Assembly: GCA_945868805.1 (NCBI GenBank)
Contig: CAMBMO010000009.1
Location: 33,311 to 97,310, forward strand
Length of the DNA: 64,000 nt
From: Singulisphaera sp. GP187
GTDB lineage: Bacteria; Planctomycetota; Phycisphaerae; Phycisphaerales; SM1A02
Direction: 5' to 3'
Positions within the stretch are counted from its first letter, which is position 1. The number at the start of each line of letters is the position of its first letter. Below, one piece after another: positions 17,079 through 26,090 of the stretch. The notes under the pieces are model-generated. The model was not told the origin of the DNA. It made no database searches and worked only from the letters and a program-made list of their open reading frames with translations. Made by a program: the position numbers and the translations under genes.

Positions 17079-18546
17079 CGACGACCTCAATCGAGATGTT
17101 TCCGATCGTTCCAAGCAAGGCGGAAAAGTCCGAGTCGAGTTGCGCATCATCCTGCGCGCTTGTCGCGATCAGCAAGTGACCAGGGTGGAACAAACTCGAC
17201 GCAAGTGTCGCGTCGAGGTCGACCCAAGCACCTTCAATTTGAGCTTGCGTCCACATATGCCACGCGAAGACATTGCGCCGCCCTCCAAACTCCTCGGCGT
17301 ACACGAGCCCACTTGCGACTCGAGCGGGAATGTGCTGCGCTCTCAAGAGTCCGGCAAGCAAGATCGCATGCTCGGAGCAATCCCCCGCCTTCGACTTAGC
17401 GACGGCACTTGCGCCGGCGAATGCCGTGGCGAGGTCCTTATGCACGATGTATCGCATCACGAATGCACGGAGTGCTTCGGCGCGCTCGTTGGTGGCGGAC
17501 GATTCGACGAGCCCGGCGGACTTCAACGCGCGCGTCGCGAGCGACTTCACGGCAGGGTCGTCCGCATCGATCAAGATTGTCGATGCGAGATAGCGGGAAT
17601 CCGCAAGATCCTCCGGTGTTGCGGGTGAAGATCGACCTGACTCGATGTCGGCGAAGAGCCCTCCCGCCGGATTCGTAGTGATGCGTTGCGCGCCTGCATC
17701 TGGGAGCGAAAGTGCGCCAGCATCCGACGATCGCACTGCCAGACGAGCATGCTTGGCCAAGAGCAATTCGGGGACTGGTTTCGTGAGCGAAACCATACTG
17801 CGGTCAATGAGGTCGATCGTCCCTCCAACGCCAGCCTTCTTTGCACGACTTTCCGTCGCGATCCTTGCCACCATGTCTCCAAGAGCGATTTTCGTCCGCG
17901 AGATGACGATGCGTCCGGTCGCGTCGACATCCTCCTCCGTCAAGAGCGCAACTGCGCTATTGGCGGTTCGCCACCGAGTCGTCTGACCTTCTCCTTCTCC
18001 GATTCGAGTCGAGGTCATCTCGACGACGCTCATTCCACTGGAGGGGTCAACCGTTGTATATCGGATCTCGGTCGCGCCTTCCTTTCGTTTCGCGTTCACG
18101 TGGCGTTCGACTTGTCCAGGGGTCAACCACTTTCCAGTTGGTGACTCCATCACGCGACTCTTCGTTCTCCCTCCTGCGGATTCCTCAACGACAACTTCGC
18201 TCGGCGAAAATCGGTATTTCGCTCGCGACTTCTCGGCACCAGAATCCTGTTCGACGATGCACTCCACCGGTGTTCCATCGCCAGCTTCGACGAATCGCCA
18301 CATCGCCTGCACAGTCGATGTCGCTCCAGCGCGCCCAATGGTCATGCGCATTTCGTTGAATGTCTGCACGCGATCGCCGGAAACTTCGACGCGTTCGTGC
18401 AACCAACCGCACTCCGTTCCCCCGATTGAAATAATGAACCAAGAATCCCGAGGCAGAAGTGTCTCGTCAACGGCGTGCGCGGAAGACGGAGCGAGCATCG
18501 CCCCAAGCGCGATGACCACCCACCACAATCGGTTATGTCGAGACAT
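17065..18546 (-). CDS. Exported transglutaminase-like protein
   Basis: A 493 aa protein with a signal peptide (LWWVVIALGAMLAPSSAHA) and a C-terminal transglutaminase-like core. The triad region is KAGDCSEHAILLAGLLRAQHIPARV (Cys), FAWHMWTQAQIEGAWVDLDAT (His and Asp). The middle is a beta-rich domain with no named family. It probably acts in the periplasm on peptide substrates, as protease or amidase rather than crosslinker; that is inference from the family. The start overlaps the lysS stop by 14 nt and the stop overlaps nnrD, so it is translated as part of the lysS operon. Confidence 0.85.
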   Translation of the reverse strand: MSRHNRLWWVVIALGAMLAPSSAHAVDETLLPRDSWFIISIGGTECGWLHERVEVSGDRVQTFNEMRMTIGRAGATSTVQAMWRFVEAGDGTPVECIVEQDSGAEKSRAKYRFSPSEVVVEESAGGRTKSRVMESPTGKWLTPGQVERHVNAKRKEGATEIRYTTVDPSSGMSVVEMTSTRIGEGEGQTTRWRTANSAVALLTEEDVDATGRIVISRTKIALGDMVARIATESRAKKAGVGGTIDLIDRSMVSLTKPVPELLLAKHARLAVRSSDAGALSLPDAGAQRITTNPAGGLFADIESGRSSPATPEDLADSRYLASTILIDADDPAVKSLATRALKSAGLVESSATNERAEALRAFVMRYIVHKDLATAFAGASAVAKSKAGDCSEHAILLAGLLRAQHIPARVASGLVYAEEFGGRRNVFAWHMWTQAQIEGAWVDLDATLASSLFHPGHLLIATSAQDDAQLDSDFSALLGTIGNISIEVVDVDR

Positions 18547-20158
18547 CGGGCGAACCTTCAGAGCGCATCAATGGAAAGAGAATCACATCCCGAATGGACG
18601 GACTATCCGTCAGAAGCATGACCAGTCGATCGATTCCCAGTCCAACACCACCCGCTGGCGGCATGCCAGTGCGGAGCGCGGTGATGAAATCGTCGTCGAG
18701 CGAACGAAAGACACTTTCCTCTTCATCGCCACCCTGCAATTGTTGGTTGAACTTCGCAAGTTGAATGTCGGGGTCATTGAGTTCTGTGTACGCGGGACCG
18801 AGCTCCATTCCCCCCACGAAGAAATCCCACCTTTCGGCGACGTCCGGCATCGACCTGCTCGGTCTGGTGAGCGGACTGACCGCGCTTGGATAGTCGAGCA
18901 CGAATGTCGGGCGACATGGATCGATCAGAGACTCGGCTTTGCGTTCAAAGAGTTCGTTCACCAGCAGCCAGTGATCGCGGGTCGTCGCCTCTACCAATCG
19001 ATTCGCAACTGCTGCCGCTCGTACCCGAGCTTGGTCAAACATCGGACACCCAACTCCGTGTTCGAAGAGATCCGAGAAGCGAACCTGCACGAAGGGCTTG
19101 CGGTAATCGATTCGCATCTCGCCCCAAGGAAGAATCGGACCCTCTTCCGCTCTCGGGTTCCATCCGCGCGCGTGCGCCTCGGTTGCGCAGTGGTGGACCA
19201 GCGACTCGATTAACTCGAGCATCGTGCCATAGTCCCCGAACGCTTCGTATGCCTCCAGAGCCGTGAATTCGGGATTGTGACTTCGATCGACACCCTCATT
19301 GCGAAAATTCCGGTTGATCTCGAAGACTTTCGGAAGCCCGCCGACGAGCAGACGCTTCAGATAGAGCTCCGGTGCGACACGCATGAACAGTGGCATACCC
19401 AAGGCATTGTGTGTCGTGATGAACGGCCTCGCCGCGGCGCCACCGGCGACTGGATGCATCATCGGGGTCTCGACTTCGAGATATCCGCGAACTTCCATGA
19501 ATCGCCTGATCGTGCTGACGATATGAGAGCGCGCTTGAAAAGTCTTGATCGTCTGCGGATTCGCGAACATATCGACGTAACGCCTCCGGTACCTGAGCTC
19601 CGCATCTTCCAATCCATGCCATTTCGATGGCGGTGGTTCGAGATTTTTCGATTGGATCGAGATCCCGCTTGCCCAAACGCAGACCTCGCCCTTCTTCGTT
19701 CGGCCGATTCTTCCCTGCACAGAGATGATGTCACCGTAATCGATCCCCTTCGCGACTTCGAAATCCTTCGCCGGAACCGCCGATTTCGAGATACTTGCCT
19801 GGAGATCTCCCGAAGCGTCACGGAGCCCTACAAAAATAATCTTCCCCATGTCGCGGTGCTGCATGACTCTGCCTGCAACGATGGCCTCGGCCCTCGTATC
19901 GACCACGACTGCCTGTGGGTTTTCCTTAGACGCCGCCACAGATTCGTCGTGGGCGGTGTGTGCCACGAGATCGAAGAGATTGCGCGCCACAGCAAGCGAT
20001 AGGAGTCCGTCTATGCGCTGCCCGAACGGTTCGATTCCGAGCTCATCGCGCAAGTGCGCCAACTTGACCCGACGGGCAGCGATCAGTTCCGACGCGGATG
20101 GATGCGCACCCGCATTGGAAGGCTGCGACCCAGATGGTGAAGGCTCTTCGCTCTGCAT
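18533..20158 (-). CDS. lysS: Lysyl-tRNA synthetase, class II
   Basis: Charges tRNA-Lys in the cytoplasm. The 541 aa product has the OB anticodon-binding domain (GRVMQHRDMGKIIFVGLRD), motif 2 (GLPKVFEINRNFRNEGVDRSHNPEFTALEAY), the substrate pocket (YPSAVSPLTRPS) and motif 3 (GVGLGIDRLVMLLTD). It carries a 25-residue Ser/Pro-rich N-terminal extension. No Shine-Dalgarno precedes ATG 20158, but TATGAT ends 6 nt before it, which fits a leaderless transcript. It heads a four-gene operon and is divergent from prfB across 54 nt. Confidence 0.96.
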   Translation of the reverse strand: MQSEEPSPSGSQPSNAGAHPSASELIAARRVKLAHLRDELGIEPFGQRIDGLLSLAVARNLFDLVAHTAHDESVAASKENPQAVVVDTRAEAIVAGRVMQHRDMGKIIFVGLRDASGDLQASISKSAVPAKDFEVAKGIDYGDIISVQGRIGRTKKGEVCVWASGISIQSKNLEPPPSKWHGLEDAELRYRRRYVDMFANPQTIKTFQARSHIVSTIRRFMEVRGYLEVETPMMHPVAGGAAARPFITTHNALGMPLFMRVAPELYLKRLLVGGLPKVFEINRNFRNEGVDRSHNPEFTALEAYEAFGDYGTMLELIESLVHHCATEAHARGWNPRAEEGPILPWGEMRIDYRKPFVQVRFSDLFEHGVGCPMFDQARVRAAAVANRLVEATTRDHWLLVNELFERKAESLIDPCRPTFVLDYPSAVSPLTRPSRSMPDVAERWDFFVGGMELGPAYTELNDPDIQLAKFNQQLQGGDEEESVFRSLDDDFITALRTGMPPAGGVGLGIDRLVMLLTDSPSIRDVILFPLMRSEGSPDVST

Positions 20159-20164
20159 CGATTG

Positions 20165-20170
20165 ATCATA
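20165..20170 (-). promoter_or_regulatory. Candidate -10 of lysS, leaderless spacing
   Basis: TATGAT on the minus strand ends exactly 6 nt before the lysS ATG, so transcription would start at or next to the A of ATG. No TTGACA-like -35 is visible at 16-18 nt spacing, and no Shine-Dalgarno lies between. Part of a pattern seen at many starts in the window. Confidence 0.45.
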
Positions 20171-20200
20171 ATCGACTCAACGCACAGCGATCGGACGATG

Positions 20201-20206
20201 TACAGT
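20201..20206 (+). promoter_or_regulatory. Candidate -10 of prfB, leaderless spacing
   Basis: TACAGT lies 6 nt before ATG 20213, the start preferred for prfB because it gives the family N-terminus. No Shine-Dalgarno separates them. ATG 20198, also in frame, overlaps this hexamer and would add five residues (MYSLA). Confidence 0.4.
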
Positions 20207-20212
20207 CTCGCC

Positions 20213-21335
20213 ATGCATTTCGAAACGCATCAGCCGGTCCTCGACGAACTTCAGGCGCGGATTTCAGCCATCCGCGACTCTCTTTAACTACCCTGACAAG
20301 GTTTCACAACGATCTCGTCTTGAGGCACTCATGGGAGAGGGCGATTTCTGGAACGATCAGAAGCGCGCCCAGAAATCGATCTCGGATCTCAAAATCGTTC
20401 GTGCATTGATCGATCCGCTCGAGGATCTGATCCGTGGTCACGGGGATGCGTCGGTTGGACTCGAACTCTCACGCGAATCGAACGACAAGGAACTTCTCAC
20501 CGAGGTCGACGAGAATCTGCATGCGCTTCTCGAAAAGATGAAACGCGTGGAGTTGCAAAGCCTCCTCTCCGAACGGCACGATCACAGGCACTGCTTCTTC
20601 TCGATCCAAGCGGGCGTTGGAGGCACCGAGGCAAACGATTGGGCTCAGATGCTCGAACGCATGTACTTGTACTACTGGGCTTCGATGGACTTCAAAATCG
20701 AGGAGATGAGTCGGACTTTCGGAACCGAGACTGGCATCGCAGAAGTTTCCTACGCAGTTCGAGGTCCGTTCGCGTATGGCTATTCCTCCTGCGAAGCTGG
20801 ATCGCACCGACTTGCACGTGTCTCGCCATTCAACGCTGAGGGCAAACGCCAGACTTCTTTCGCGACTGTTGATGTCACGCCCGAATTCGAGGAGTCCGAC
20901 ATCGAGATCCCCGACCGCGATGTCGAAATCATCGCATTCGTGCGCGCGAGTGGTCCAGGAGGTCAGAATGTCAACAAGGTTGCCTCCGCAATCCGCGTGA
21001 CGCATCATCCGACCGGTATTCAGGTTGTCGCGAATACTTTTCGGGATCAATCGCAGAATCGAAAGCAGGCGCTCTCTGTGCTGATGTCGAAACTCGAACA
21101 GATCGCGCAGGAAAAACGCGATGCGGAGATCTCAGAAGCCAAGGGTGGCAAGGTCGAACGCGGATGGGGAACGCAGATACGGTCATATGTTTTCTATGAC
21201 AATCGAGTCAAGGACCATCGAACCAACTACGAGGAGCCCAATCCGCAGCATGTACTTGAAGGGAACATCGGCGCTTTCGTCGATGCCGAATTGAACCGAC
21301 GCCGACGCGATCGCGAAGGCGTCCAAACCGGATAG
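20213..21335 (+). CDS. prfB: Peptide chain release factor 2, +1 frameshift at a UAA codon
   Basis: RF2 ends translation at UGA and UAA. The track ORF (20331) lacks the N-terminus. Reading from ATG 20213 gives MHFETHQPVLDELQARISAI, then RDSL and an in-frame TAA (20285-20287). A +1 shift at CTT TAA C continues as NYPDKVSQRSRLEALMGEGDFWNDQ, the normal RF2 sequence, for about 373 aa in total. Further marks are the codon-recognition SPF (RLARVSPFNAEGKRQTS) and catalytic GGQ (GPGGQNVNKVASAIR). Autoregulatory frameshifting is standard for prfB, but the stop is normally UGA; UAA is unusual. No AGGGGG stimulator precedes the site. Confidence 0.92.
20279..20288 (+). other. prfB +1 frameshift site CUU UAA C
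   Basis: The zero-frame codons UCU CUU UAA are followed by C. Slippage of the CUU-decoding tRNA onto UUU would move the frame to AAC UAC CCU and into the long RF2 ORF. The amino-acid context on both sides (RDSL then NYPDK) matches RF2, which argues that the break is programmed rather than a dead gene. Confidence 0.75.
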
Positions 21336-21342
21336 GAAACGC

Positions 21343-23427
21343 ATGAGCGCATCCGACGACACCAAGACTCATCGGGCAAAGATTCGGTTCGTCGATTTTG
21401 GTCGGGTCGTCTGCAACACGGACGAGGCCTTTCGGCGTGAATGGCTCGTTACAAATGGACTCGGTGGATACTCGTCGGGAACGATTGGTGGCGTGCGTAC
21501 GAGGCGCTACCACGGGATGCTTGTCGCCGCGACAGTCCCGCCTGCGGTCCGAACAATGTTGCTCGGCGAGACTTTCCCAACAGCGATCTATCGTGGCACT
21601 CGCTATCCGCTTTCCTCGAACCAGTGGAGGGATGAATCCATTTCGCCAAAGGGACACCTGTGGCTTCAGCGCTTTCATCTCGATCGGCAAATTCCAGTTT
21701 GGCGATGGTCGTTCTCCGACGCCCTGCTCGAGCGACGAATCTTCATGATTCACGGCGAGAACACTCTCTGCCAGCACTGGACCCTCGTTCAAGGGTCGAG
21801 TCCAATCCAACTCCAGATCGAAACGCTTGTAGACAATCGAAGTCACCACGACATCGGTCGACTCGACGCACAGACGCCGACCCTTGAGCGAGCGCCGCGC
21901 GGCATACGACTCGTATGGACCAACAAACTCCCGGGGTGTGGCTCGGAACTCTTCGTCCAGTGCGATAAGTCGGTGCCGACTCCAACTGGAAAGTGGTGGA
22001 AGGACTACCTGCTGACCGAGGAACGGGCGCGCGGATACGACTCGATCGACTGCCTCTGGCATGCTGCCACATTCGAGGTCGTACTTCCTCCAGGAGACTC
22101 GACGCTCTTCACAGCTTCGACGACTTCACAGCCATCATCGCCTCCAAACCGACTCCTCGACGCAGAGCTTGATCGATTGGACGCACTGCTCGCGTTGTCG
22201 GCCATCCCCGATACATATCCCGTGATTCGGCAACTCGTCCTCGCGGCAGATCAATTTGTCGTTCGACGCAATCGAAAGGGATCGCCAGAGGCCAATGGAA
22301 TATCGATCATTGCTGGGTATCCGTGGTTCGCGGACTGGAGTCGCGACGCGATGATTTCTGTTTCGGGACTTCTTCTCGCAACCAATCGTGTCGCGGATGC
22401 GCAAACCCTGCTCTCGACCTATGTGGACTACATCGATGAGGGCATGCTCCCGAATCGATTCCCAGACAGGGGCACTGGCGCGATCGAATACAACAGCGTC
22501 GATGCACCACTCCTGATGATCATCGCGGCGGAGAAGACCTTTTCCACGGGGATGGACGCCAAGTGGCTCGCCGAGATTTGGCCAGCTCTCCATTCGATCG
22601 TTGTGGCTTTCACCAAAGGCACGAGACACGGAATTCGCGTCGACCCAGCGGACGGACTCCTGTGCGCAGGCGAAAGAGGACTGCAACTGACCTGGATGGA
22701 TGCGAAGGTCGGCGACCGAGTCATTACTCCGCGGCAAGGCAAGCCCGTCGAAATCAATGCGTTTTGGTTTCAGGCGTTGGTGGCGATGGAAAAGCTCGCC
22801 AAGGCAATGGGCGTTCCTTTCAGTCAGTACGCGGACGCAGCAACCAAAGTCCGGGGGTCATTCAGCAAGTTTTGGAATCACGCATCCTCATGCTGTCTCG
22901 ATGTCATTGACGGACCCAACGGTTCGGACGGATCAGTGAGGCCAAATCAACTGTTCGCGTCGGCGATTGGAGACCCACTTCTCCCGCAAGGTCAGCGCAA
23001 GGCGATCATCGACCTGTGCATGGCTCGACTCTGGACACCGCAGGGCTTGCGCACAATCGATCCGAGGGATCCCGCCTACTGCGGGAACTATGGTGGAGAC
23101 CCAGCCACCCGCGACGGCGCATACCACCAGGGCACCGCCTGGCCGTGGCTCTTCATGCCACTCGTCCAATCACATGTCGGCGTCCACAACGACCGCAAGG
23201 CGATCGATGATTTTCTCTTTCCATTCGCCAACCATCTGCGCGAAGCGGGACTTGGATCGGTGAGTGAGATCTTCAGCGGAGATCCACCTCATCAATCCCA
23301 AGGATGCATCGCCCAAGCATGGAGCGTTGCCACACTTCTCGAGTTGCTTCGTTGGATTCACACCATCCCACCCTCGCCGTCATCGACACCATCACAACAA
23401 GTTCCCGAGGCGGTCCGAATTCCATGA
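21343..23427 (+). CDS. Glycogen debranching enzyme family protein (amylo-alpha-1,6-glucosidase)
   Basis: A 694 aa cytoplasmic enzyme predicted to hydrolyse alpha-1,6 branch stubs of glycogen or maltodextrin. Residues about 20-240 are the bacterial debranching N-domain (REWLVTNGLGGYSSGTIGGVRTRRYHGMLVA). From about 295 comes the (alpha/alpha)6 catalytic domain: AGYPWFADWSRDAMISVSGLL, GMLPNRFPDRGTGAIEYNSVDAPLL, TWMDAKVGDRVITPRQGKPVEINAFW and RDGAYHQGTAWPWL. AGGAAACGC precedes ATG 21343, which lies 7 nt after prfB. The stop overlaps the next start (ATGA), tying it to a GH63 glucosidase. Confidence 0.92.
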   Translation: MSASDDTKTHRAKIRFVDFGRVVCNTDEAFRREWLVTNGLGGYSSGTIGGVRTRRYHGMLVAATVPPAVRTMLLGETFPTAIYRGTRYPLSSNQWRDESISPKGHLWLQRFHLDRQIPVWRWSFSDALLERRIFMIHGENTLCQHWTLVQGSSPIQLQIETLVDNRSHHDIGRLDAQTPTLERAPRGIRLVWTNKLPGCGSELFVQCDKSVPTPTGKWWKDYLLTEERARGYDSIDCLWHAATFEVVLPPGDSTLFTASTTSQPSSPPNRLLDAELDRLDALLALSAIPDTYPVIRQLVLAADQFVVRRNRKGSPEANGISIIAGYPWFADWSRDAMISVSGLLLATNRVADAQTLLSTYVDYIDEGMLPNRFPDRGTGAIEYNSVDAPLLMIIAAEKTFSTGMDAKWLAEIWPALHSIVVAFTKGTRHGIRVDPADGLLCAGERGLQLTWMDAKVGDRVITPRQGKPVEINAFWFQALVAMEKLAKAMGVPFSQYADAATKVRGSFSKFWNHASSCCLDVIDGPNGSDGSVRPNQLFASAIGDPLLPQGQRKAIIDLCMARLWTPQGLRTIDPRDPAYCGNYGGDPATRDGAYHQGTAWPWLFMPLVQSHVGVHNDRKAIDDFLFPFANHLREAGLGSVSEIFSGDPPHQSQGCIAQAWSVATLLELLRWIHTIPPSPSSTPSQQVPEAVRIP

Positions 23428-26090
23428 GCAAAATCTCAGCGTCAGTCATCACCGCGGAGCAACAGCGACTCGACGATAAACATGCCGGTCGTGTCGCTTG
23501 GCGTAGCTTCGGCCCCTTTCTCTCTGATCGTCAATGGGGGACCGTGCGCGAGGACTATTCCCACGATGGGTCAGCTTGGGACTACTTCACGCACGACGAA
23601 GCGCGGAGTCGGGCGTATCGGTGGGGAGAAGACGGCATCGCTGGGTTTTGCGACCAGGAGCAATTGATCTGCATGTCGCTCGCACTTTGGAACGGGCAGG
23701 ATCCGATTCTCAAGGAGAGGCACTTCGGACTGACCAACACTCAAGGCAACCACGGCGAGGATGTCAAGGAACTTTACTGGTTTCTTGATGCGCTTCCAAG
23801 CGGGGCGTGGCAGCGGATGCTCTACAAGTATCCGCATCGACCATTCCCCTACGAAGAACTCGTGCGGGTCAATGCGTCGCGAAGCAAGCTTGAGCGTGAG
23901 TTTGAACTTCTCGACACGGGCGTATTCGACGACGACCGATACTTCGATGTCTTCGTCGATTATGCGAAGGAGGGAGTTTCGGATGTCCTCATGCGAATCG
24001 AAGTTTTCAATCGGGGTCCTGAAGCCGCGACGATCCATATCTTGCCGACGACGCTCTTTCGCAATACGTGGACCTGGACGAATGCTCCCGATCGCCCTTC
24101 GATGATCGCGACCAAACAAGGTGTGGAAGTTAAACACCCGAAGTTTGCGCCGATGCAGTTGCAGTTCGATGGGAATCCCGAGCTTCTCTTCTGTGAGAAT
24201 GAGACGAATATCACCCGAATCGACGGACTACCGCGCAATGGTCGATTCTTCAAGGATGGCATCAACGATTTCGTCGTGAATCACTCGAAGGACTCCGTCA
24301 ATCCTGCGAAGACTGGCACCAAGGTGTCAGCGCACTTCGCAGTCGATATTCCGGCGGGCAAGTCGCACATCGTTCGCGTTCGTTTGAGTCCCGCGGGAAC
24401 GCGAGGAGGATTTGCCGACTTCGATGCGATCATGACAAAGCGCAAGGCCGAGGCTGACGAGTTCTATGCGCAGAAACAGGCCCGCATTGACGATCCCGAA
24501 CTGCGCGACATCCAGCGGCAGGCGTGGGCTGGACTGCTGTGGAATCAGCAGACTTATGTGTACGAAGTTCGAACATGGCTCGAAGGTGACTCCGCGATGG
24601 ATCCCCCTCCGGAATCCAGAAAAACCGGGCGCAATTCAGAATGGCAGCACCTGAACAACCACTTCGTGTTCTGCATGCCCGACTCCTGGGAATATCCGTG
24701 GTACGCATCCTGGGATCTCGCGTTCCACTGCGTCGCACTTGCAGAGATCGACGCAGAAGAAGCGAAGGTGCAACTCTCGCACCTGATGATCGATCGTTCC
24801 ATGCACCCGAGCGGGCAGATCCCCGCGTACGAGTGGGCGTTCGGCGATGTCAATCCTCCAGTACACGCATGGGCTGCGCTTCGCATCCACGAAATCGATT
24901 GCGAACGAACAGGGCAGTCGGACGACGTGTTTCTGCGCAAGATCTTCCATCGACTGCTATTGAATTTCACATGGTGGGTCAATCGCAAAGATGCGGACGG
25001 TCGGAATCTCTTCGCTGGAGGATTTCTAGGACTGGACAACGTGGGTGTTTTTGATCGAAGCGCGGACCTGCCATCAGGTGCAGTGCTTCAGCAGGCCGAT
25101 GGAACTGCGTGGATGGGGATGTTCGCACTCAACATGATGCGAATCGCGGTGGAACTGTCGCTCCGCGACGGCGTCTATCAAGACATGGCCATGAAGTTCT
25201 TCGAACACTTTTTGGGGATCGCATCCGCAATGGCAGATTTCGCGGGAACGGGCGAAGGGCTCTGGGACGACGCGGACAAGTTCTATTACGACCGCCTTCG
25301 ATTTCCTTCCGGGGAAACGATTCCGATGCGAGTTCAATCAATCGTTGGACTCCTGCCGCTTACCGCCGTTCAAGTCATGAAGCCTGAAGGACTGGACAAG
25401 CTCCCGCTCTTCAAAGCGCGAATCGAATGGGTTTTCCAGTCTCGACCGGACTTGGCAAATCTTGTCTCCCACTGGAATCAGGGTGGAAGTGGCGATCAAC
25501 GACTCTTCTCGTTGCTCAGAGGGCACAGAATGAAGTGCCTTCTTCGCAGAATGCTCGATGAGAGCCAGTTCCTTTCCGAGTATGGAATTCGTTCGATGTC
25601 CCGCGCACTGGAAAACGACCCGTATGTCTTCTGGCACAATGGCCAGAGTCTTTCTGTGCGATACACCCCGGCCGAGGGTGCGAGTGGAGCGTTCGGTGGC
25701 AACAGCAACTGGCGTGGACCGATCTGGTTCCCGGTGAATTTCTTGCTCGTCGAAAGTCTTCTGCGATTTCACGACTACTACGGAGACGACTTCAAGATCG
25801 AGTGCCCTGCGGGCTCGAAGAATCTCGTCACCCTTTCCGAAGCTGCGAAGGTGGTTGCAGAACGACTCATCAAACTCTTCCGCAAGAACGCGCAGGGAAT
25901 TCGTCCCTGCCTCGGTGACCATCCGAAAATGCAGTCAGATCCGAATTTCAATCGTTACCACCTCTTTCATGAGTACTTCGACGGCAACAACGGTCGCGGT
26001 TGCGGTGCATCCCATCAGACCGGCTGGACCGCGATGGTCGCGCATCTCATTTCGCAGTTCGCGTCGACCACAACGGGCGCCAACAAGTAA
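23424..26090 (+). CDS. GH63-type glucosidase
   Basis: An 888 aa protein starting at ATG 23424 (MSKISASVITAEQQRLDDK), overlapping the debranching enzyme stop by ATGA. It matches bacterial glucosidases of glycoside hydrolase family 63 in the (alpha/alpha)6 clan: PDSWEYPWYASWDLAFHCVALAEID, MHPSGQIPAYEWAFGDVNPPVHAWA, LPSGAVLQQADGTAWMGMFALNMMRIA and GGNSNWRGPIWFPVNFLLVESL are the conserved blocks. It has no signal peptide, so it probably acts on cytoplasmic alpha-glucosides, perhaps small osmolytes such as mannosyl- or glucosylglycerate, or on glycogen fragments; the substrate is inference. Its stop overlaps the kinase start (TAATG). Confidence 0.88.
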   Translation: MSKISASVITAEQQRLDDKHAGRVAWRSFGPFLSDRQWGTVREDYSHDGSAWDYFTHDEARSRAYRWGEDGIAGFCDQEQLICMSLALWNGQDPILKERHFGLTNTQGNHGEDVKELYWFLDALPSGAWQRMLYKYPHRPFPYEELVRVNASRSKLEREFELLDTGVFDDDRYFDVFVDYAKEGVSDVLMRIEVFNRGPEAATIHILPTTLFRNTWTWTNAPDRPSMIATKQGVEVKHPKFAPMQLQFDGNPELLFCENETNITRIDGLPRNGRFFKDGINDFVVNHSKDSVNPAKTGTKVSAHFAVDIPAGKSHIVRVRLSPAGTRGGFADFDAIMTKRKAEADEFYAQKQARIDDPELRDIQRQAWAGLLWNQQTYVYEVRTWLEGDSAMDPPPESRKTGRNSEWQHLNNHFVFCMPDSWEYPWYASWDLAFHCVALAEIDAEEAKVQLSHLMIDRSMHPSGQIPAYEWAFGDVNPPVHAWAALRIHEIDCERTGQSDDVFLRKIFHRLLLNFTWWVNRKDADGRNLFAGGFLGLDNVGVFDRSADLPSGAVLQQADGTAWMGMFALNMMRIAVELSLRDGVYQDMAMKFFEHFLGIASAMADFAGTGEGLWDDADKFYYDRLRFPSGETIPMRVQSIVGLLPLTAVQVMKPEGLDKLPLFKARIEWVFQSRPDLANLVSHWNQGGSGDQRLFSLLRGHRMKCLLRRMLDESQFLSEYGIRSMSRALENDPYVFWHNGQSLSVRYTPAEGASGAFGGNSNWRGPIWFPVNFLLVESLLRFHDYYGDDFKIECPAGSKNLVTLSEAAKVVAERLIKLFRKNAQGIRPCLGDHPKMQSDPNFNRYHLFHEYFDGNNGRGCGASHQTGWTAMVAHLISQFASTTTGANK

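Follow-up and report, generated by a model that had tools for sequence, protein, structure and literature searches.

A covarying hairpin in the place of the Shine-Dalgarno-like element at the prfB frameshift site of Phycisphaerae

The DNA analysed here, a stretch of 64,000 nucleotides referred to as the window, carries on its forward strand a prfB gene that is divided between two reading frames. The leader in the zero frame (positions 20213-20284, 24 codons, MHFETHQPVLDELQARISAIRDSL) was identified by reading the open reading frames, and its peptide is conserved in relatives. It ends with the shifty P-site codon CUU (20282-20284), which is followed by the stop codon UAA (20285-20287) and then by a C at 20288, such that a +1 slip would allow the P-site tRNA to re-pair with UUU. 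The main frame, encoding the body of RF2 with its SPF and GGQ motifs (349 amino acids plus stop), runs without a break from 20286 to 21335 on the same strand, and its product scores 370.8 bits against the NCBIfam prfB model TIGR00020 (cut-off 370). The window's slip site reads CTT TAA C; its E. coli counterpart at the same place reads CTT TGA C. The locus therefore has an early in-frame stop with the rest of the gene in the +1 frame, the shifty CUU_U, a C after the stop and a stop codon readable by RF2 (UGA or, rarely, UAA), here UAA. The original prediction, that a prfB leader ending in CTT TAA C enters the RF2 frame by a +1 shift, is borne out by the frames, by the TIGR00020 match and by the conservation of the site.

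Immediately upstream of prfB, and divergent from it, lies a gene for lysyl-tRNA synthetase (18533-20158, reverse strand). In E. coli prfB and lysS form one operon, hence the neighbourhood is retained in the window with a different orientation. Downstream, an archaeal-type glycogen debranching enzyme is encoded on the forward strand at 21343-23427, beginning 7 bases past the prfB stop, and the next large open reading frame (23304-26090, forward strand) has a weak match to glucosylglycerate hydrolase.

In a first set of relatives, nearly all prfB genes of the order Phycisphaerales carry CTTTRAC at the same place behind the same leader peptide. An alignment of the prfB 5' region, as the original prediction had proposed, found the position and sequence of the site kept in several independent assemblies, with CUU URA C preserved exactly; the UAA is real. 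Close relatives have no uninterrupted frame across this position, and relatives with UGA, which might have indicated an assembly error, share the same +1 architecture. These results support the conclusion that the window's prfB has a +1 frameshift site that is retained by selection, uses UAA and lacks a Shine-Dalgarno (SD)-like stimulator.

The window does not contain an SD-like AGGGGG 3 nt upstream of CUU. Counting upstream from the C of CUU (-1, -2 and so on), the best duplex of positions -18 to -1 with the anti-SD is 0.1 kcal/mol in the window, and the median among Phycisphaerales is 0.0 kcal/mol, compared with -12.1 kcal/mol for E. coli by the same computation. Sites from the other Phycisphaerae orders reach about -4 kcal/mol, many of them through a GGGAC that pairs weakly with the anti-SD, so SD pairing may retain a residual role in these orders; the remaining phylum reaches -4.8 kcal/mol, with 14 of 40 sites at -6 or better. 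An altered anti-SD was considered as the cause of the missing pairing and rejected, because the 3' tail of 16S rRNA is canonical in relatives (...GGATCACCUCCUUUCU), where it was seen within its 16S context; the match in the window's own genome (C8) is a chance match outside 16S. The claim that the AGGGGG-type stimulator is missing thus holds. Its reading as plain absence does not, since a conserved hairpin occupies its place.

This hairpin (20256-20276, forward strand) consists of 7 base pairs closing a 7-nt loop and ends exactly 5 nt before CUU. Its 5' arm, CGCGGAU (20256-20262, -26 to -20), pairs with the 3' arm, AUCCGCG (20270-20276, -12 to -6), for a minimum free energy of -10.4 kcal/mol. 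The loop (20263-20269), UUCAGCC in the window, is variable, and its synonymous conservation is at background level. The 5-nt spacer ACUCU (20277-20281) contains the E-site codon UCU, so the covarying 7-bp stem stands just upstream of that codon. The spacer has the same length in all aligned sites, CUU never varies among those of the class, and the alignment of sites is free of gaps, which means that the distance from stem to CUU is fixed. The 3' arm overlaps positions -9 to -4, which in E. coli prfB are taken up by the SD:anti-SD duplex.

The hairpin comparison covered Planctomycetota. All seven pairs are present at 48 of the 51 distinct Phycisphaerales sites and at 50 of 69 distinct sites from the other Phycisphaerae orders, where a further 9 have six; at least six pairs were found at none of the 40 distinct sites from the rest of the phylum. 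The stem exceeds synonymous shuffles in stability in Phycisphaerales and the rest of the class (mean z -2.3) but not in other planctomycetes (-0.3). The window's hairpin taken alone is not unusual among synonymous codon shuffles (p 0.09), and the evidence for it is comparative; the fold of the window's whole 5' region is likewise no more stable than shuffles. RNAalifold returned no consensus on the full mixed class set because about ten class members have no stem in this register, some of which form other stems nearby. Restricted to Phycisphaerales it recovered the stem, as it did with the 114 of 124 sequences that form six or more pairs, a selected set. No Rfam covariance model matched window positions 19900-20700 up to E = 1. 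A second helix, (-28,-4), (-29,-3) and (-30,-2), which reaches the E-site codon, is common in Phycisphaerales and is not common in the rest of the class.

Sites within the phylum are thus of three kinds: true SD sites (e.g. L127 and L233), sites with the weak GGGAC, and sites with a hairpin and no SD. Three loci outside the class (L122, L204 and L224) have an SD-like run or purine stretch together with a strong hairpin just upstream in another register; this type may be an intermediate between one stimulator and the other.

The leader encodes a palindromic peptide, R-I-x-x-I-R, that supplies four of the seven pairs automatically. The case for the hairpin therefore rests on the other three pairs, which provide an independent test, and on the natural controls described below. 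By codon phase, (-25,-7) and (-22,-10) are pairs of third codon positions, and both alternate repeatedly among G-C, C-G, A-U and U-A. At the former, Phycisphaerales and one other family have G-C and most other orders have C-G, with cases of A-U, U-A and G-U; the arms of one version from sister orders read CCCGGAU and AUCCGGG. It is the top covarying pair among 861 column pairs (95% paired against 54% expected, MI 0.80). When changes were placed on the RF2 tree, both sides of (-25,-7) changed together on 6 branches, 5 of which replaced a standard pair by a different standard pair (p 6.8e-8), and both sides of (-22,-10) on 4 branches, all compensatory (p 1.9e-4); ranked by compensatory double changes, the two come first and second among the 861 column pairs. 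In an independent count over 79 spaced sequences, 91.7% of cells were paired; shuffled data gave 83.4% (0 of 500 shuffles), slid registers gave 19-45%, and double-change cells numbered 48 where 20 were expected. Within Phycisphaerales, synonymous codon identity is 0.97 and 0.95 for the two codons of the 5' arm, 0.90 and 0.69 for those of the 3' arm, and 0.43-0.52 for those of the loop. The third positions at the loop ends, -19 and -13 (window 20263 and 20269), also change jointly, on 11 branches (p 1.2e-4), and the products of these joint changes are mostly not standard pairs (C/C, U/G, C/G).

Lineages that have lost the shift serve as natural controls. Five genomes, all Phycisphaerales (G024, G031, G049, G053 and G057), encode the same N-terminus of RF2 in a single continuous frame. 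They keep four or five of the seven pairs, and the outer pair (-26,-6) is gone in all of them. All 73 distinct Phycisphaerales sequences that shift have Ala at codon -9, the source of the C in this pair; the five non-shifting genomes have Gln, Asp or Glu. The complete stem has accordingly been lost in lineages that lost the shift. In two genera (g7 and g14) the motif of stem plus site is missing throughout the sampled genomes.

We then consider the stop codon. The stem-plus-site motif, with at most two mismatches, is present in 103 of 121 genomes of the window's family, 35 with TAA and 68 with TGA. The choice is uniform inside each sampled genus, the exception being the window's own genus, which is mostly TAA. 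At distinct sites, found by a search that accepted TAA or TGA as the stop, TAA accounts for 26 of 51 in Phycisphaerales (TGA for the remaining 25), 3 of 69 in the other Phycisphaerae orders and 0 of 40 in the rest of the phylum; a phylum-wide scan for CTTTRAC proved too loose for use. One prfB match (G402:C3:1488-2520) is broken into two overlapping parts that lie in different frames, reflecting either a second frame change within the gene or an assembly error. UAA at prfB is not new but a minor variant already on record: TAA was found in 1.4% of 8,164 shifting genomes, in a survey which reports that SD-like sequences occur almost universally and that TAA has not reached broad fixation within clades (Prince et al. 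2025, PMC12421855), and the GeneTack consensus for prfB is YTT_TRA_C (PMC3711429).

On the RF2 tree (103 rows), the states TAA, TGA and no shift are separated by about 14 changes, and the only effect of UGA to UAA after the shift is a replacement of Asp by Asn. The simplest account that fits these observations is that UAA may be a tolerated, near-neutral G-to-A swap. The original prediction had raised weak RF1 as a possible setting for UAA, and this was not upheld: RF1 of the same genome (L098 42-1121) has intact PAT and GGQ motifs, and RF1 is present in 58 of 61 relatives, UAA users and UGA users alike. Loss or breakage of RF1 was thus rejected as the reason for UAA, and with RF1 intact no special cause of UAA is demonstrable. 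The RF1 of this genome falls under both NCBIfam RF1 cut-offs (354 vs 400; 344 vs 423), marking it as a divergent RF1. Stop usage in 231 long open reading frames of the genome (390 kb sampled) is 65% TGA, 18% TAG and 17% TAA. A stronger stem, with fewer G-U pairs, at UAA sites was suggested by counts; phylogenetically independent pairs gave no support, and the idea was dropped.

Several other explanations for the conserved region were weighed. The conservation could reflect the coding sequence or the nascent peptide (EARIxxIRDSL) without any RNA structure, the shift being driven by CUU URA C alone or together with the nascent chain. The peptide is strongly conserved and, as noted, its palindrome yields most of the stem; against this, (-25,-7) and (-22,-10) swap jointly through synonymous codon pairs on independent branches, synonymous conservation falls on the stem codons and not on those of the loop, and the five shift-less members of the order alter the peptide itself at codon -9. 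We therefore regard a purely peptide-based constraint as unlikely. The hairpin might instead be bound by some protein or other regulator acting on prfB mRNA, apart from any effect on frameshift efficiency. The function of the stem is itself deduced, which leaves room for this idea, whereas the constant 5-nt distance to CUU, the occupation of the SD position, the variable loop and the fact that several lineages have lost full stem and shift site together are all at odds with it, making a separate binding site quite improbable.

Slightly less probable still is internal initiation of RF2 in the main frame, for which an ATG at 20331 is available, with the leader as a regulatory relic. A start there would lose an N-terminal part of RF2, and in relatives without the shift this N-terminus is encoded in a continuous frame, implying that the leader is part of the protein; moreover, conservation across the whole class covers the leader peptide, the shift site and the stem jointly. 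That the window comes from a draft genome in 47 contigs could favour a sequencing or assembly error, or a broken prfB, but scores of independent assemblies, the single-contig G027 and G046 among them, carry this site, and an artefact or pseudogene was rejected on the strength of the relatives' conserved site as having almost no chance of being correct.

Taken together, the comparisons make it highly probable that prfB in this group is an autoregulatory +1 programmed frameshift whose upstream stimulator is a hairpin within the mRNA rather than an SD:anti-SD duplex. There is precedent for this proposal. An artificial hairpin placed upstream of CUUUGA gave about 60% of SD-driven +1 shifting in a purified 70S system, seen only without RF2 (Huang et al. 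2018, PMC6321510), and the Phycisphaerae hairpin looks like a natural version of it. The 5' stem-loop of T4 gene 60 is thought to pull the mRNA 5'-ward by zipping at the exit channel (PMC5009743). A +1 slip requires movement in that same direction, and the 3' arm lies over the SD place; for these reasons we take the hairpin to be the stimulator.

We infer the following sequence of events in vivo. The ribosome would read the leader and halt once CUU occupies the P site and UAA, or UGA in relatives, the A site. The arms of the hairpin, by then already out of the exit channel, would re-pair from the loop downwards, and the bottom of the stem would zip against the E site, drawing the mRNA one base 5'-ward. 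Leu-tRNA could then slip from CUU to UUU, and AAC (or GAC) would be decoded in the new frame to give RF2. With release factor abundant, termination would win and little RF2 would be made. It follows from codon specificity that the feedback would be altered at UAA: RF1 and RF2 can both terminate there, so the loop would sense total UAA-release capacity, and at UGA it would sense RF2 alone.

We suggest, at about even chances, that the class Phycisphaerae has swapped the supposedly near-universal SD-type stimulator of prfB for an exit-channel hairpin, and that some Phycisphaerales have in addition moved to UAA and thereby to a sensor of RF1 plus RF2. A class-wide natural alternative with repeated compensatory changes would indicate that the stimulator is exchangeable while the slip site stays constant, and it would provide a natural example of a mechanism that the open-licence literature has so far demonstrated with an artificial hairpin. 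The UAA and UGA sites form a ready panel for asking whether the feedback responds to RF2 alone or to both release factors.

With the E. coli type of prfB site (AGGGGG UAU CUU UGA C) the window's site shares the gene, the codon position, CUU, the +1 direction, the stop followed by C and a U-rich E-site codon; it differs in having a covarying hairpin in place of the SD-like stimulator, and UAA as its stop, as in many sister genera. The recorded UAA-type prfB sites (PMC12421855, PMC3711429) likewise have CUU UAA C at the same codon. Compared with the survey (PMC12421855), TAA is here stable at genus level within a single family, in about a dozen genera, which qualifies the survey's statement on fixation in clades, and an SD-like element is missing across the order. 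The artificial hairpin H1 (PMC6321510) is similar in that an intra-mRNA stem beside the E site replaces the internal SD, but H1 was designed, with 12 bp and a UGCG loop, whereas the Phycisphaerae stem is natural, has 7 bp and a 7-nt loop, and is maintained by evolution. The resemblance to T4 gene 60 lies in an exit-channel stem thought to pull the mRNA 5'-ward, which in gene 60 accompanies a bypass of 50 nt and at prfB would accompany a slip of one nucleotide.
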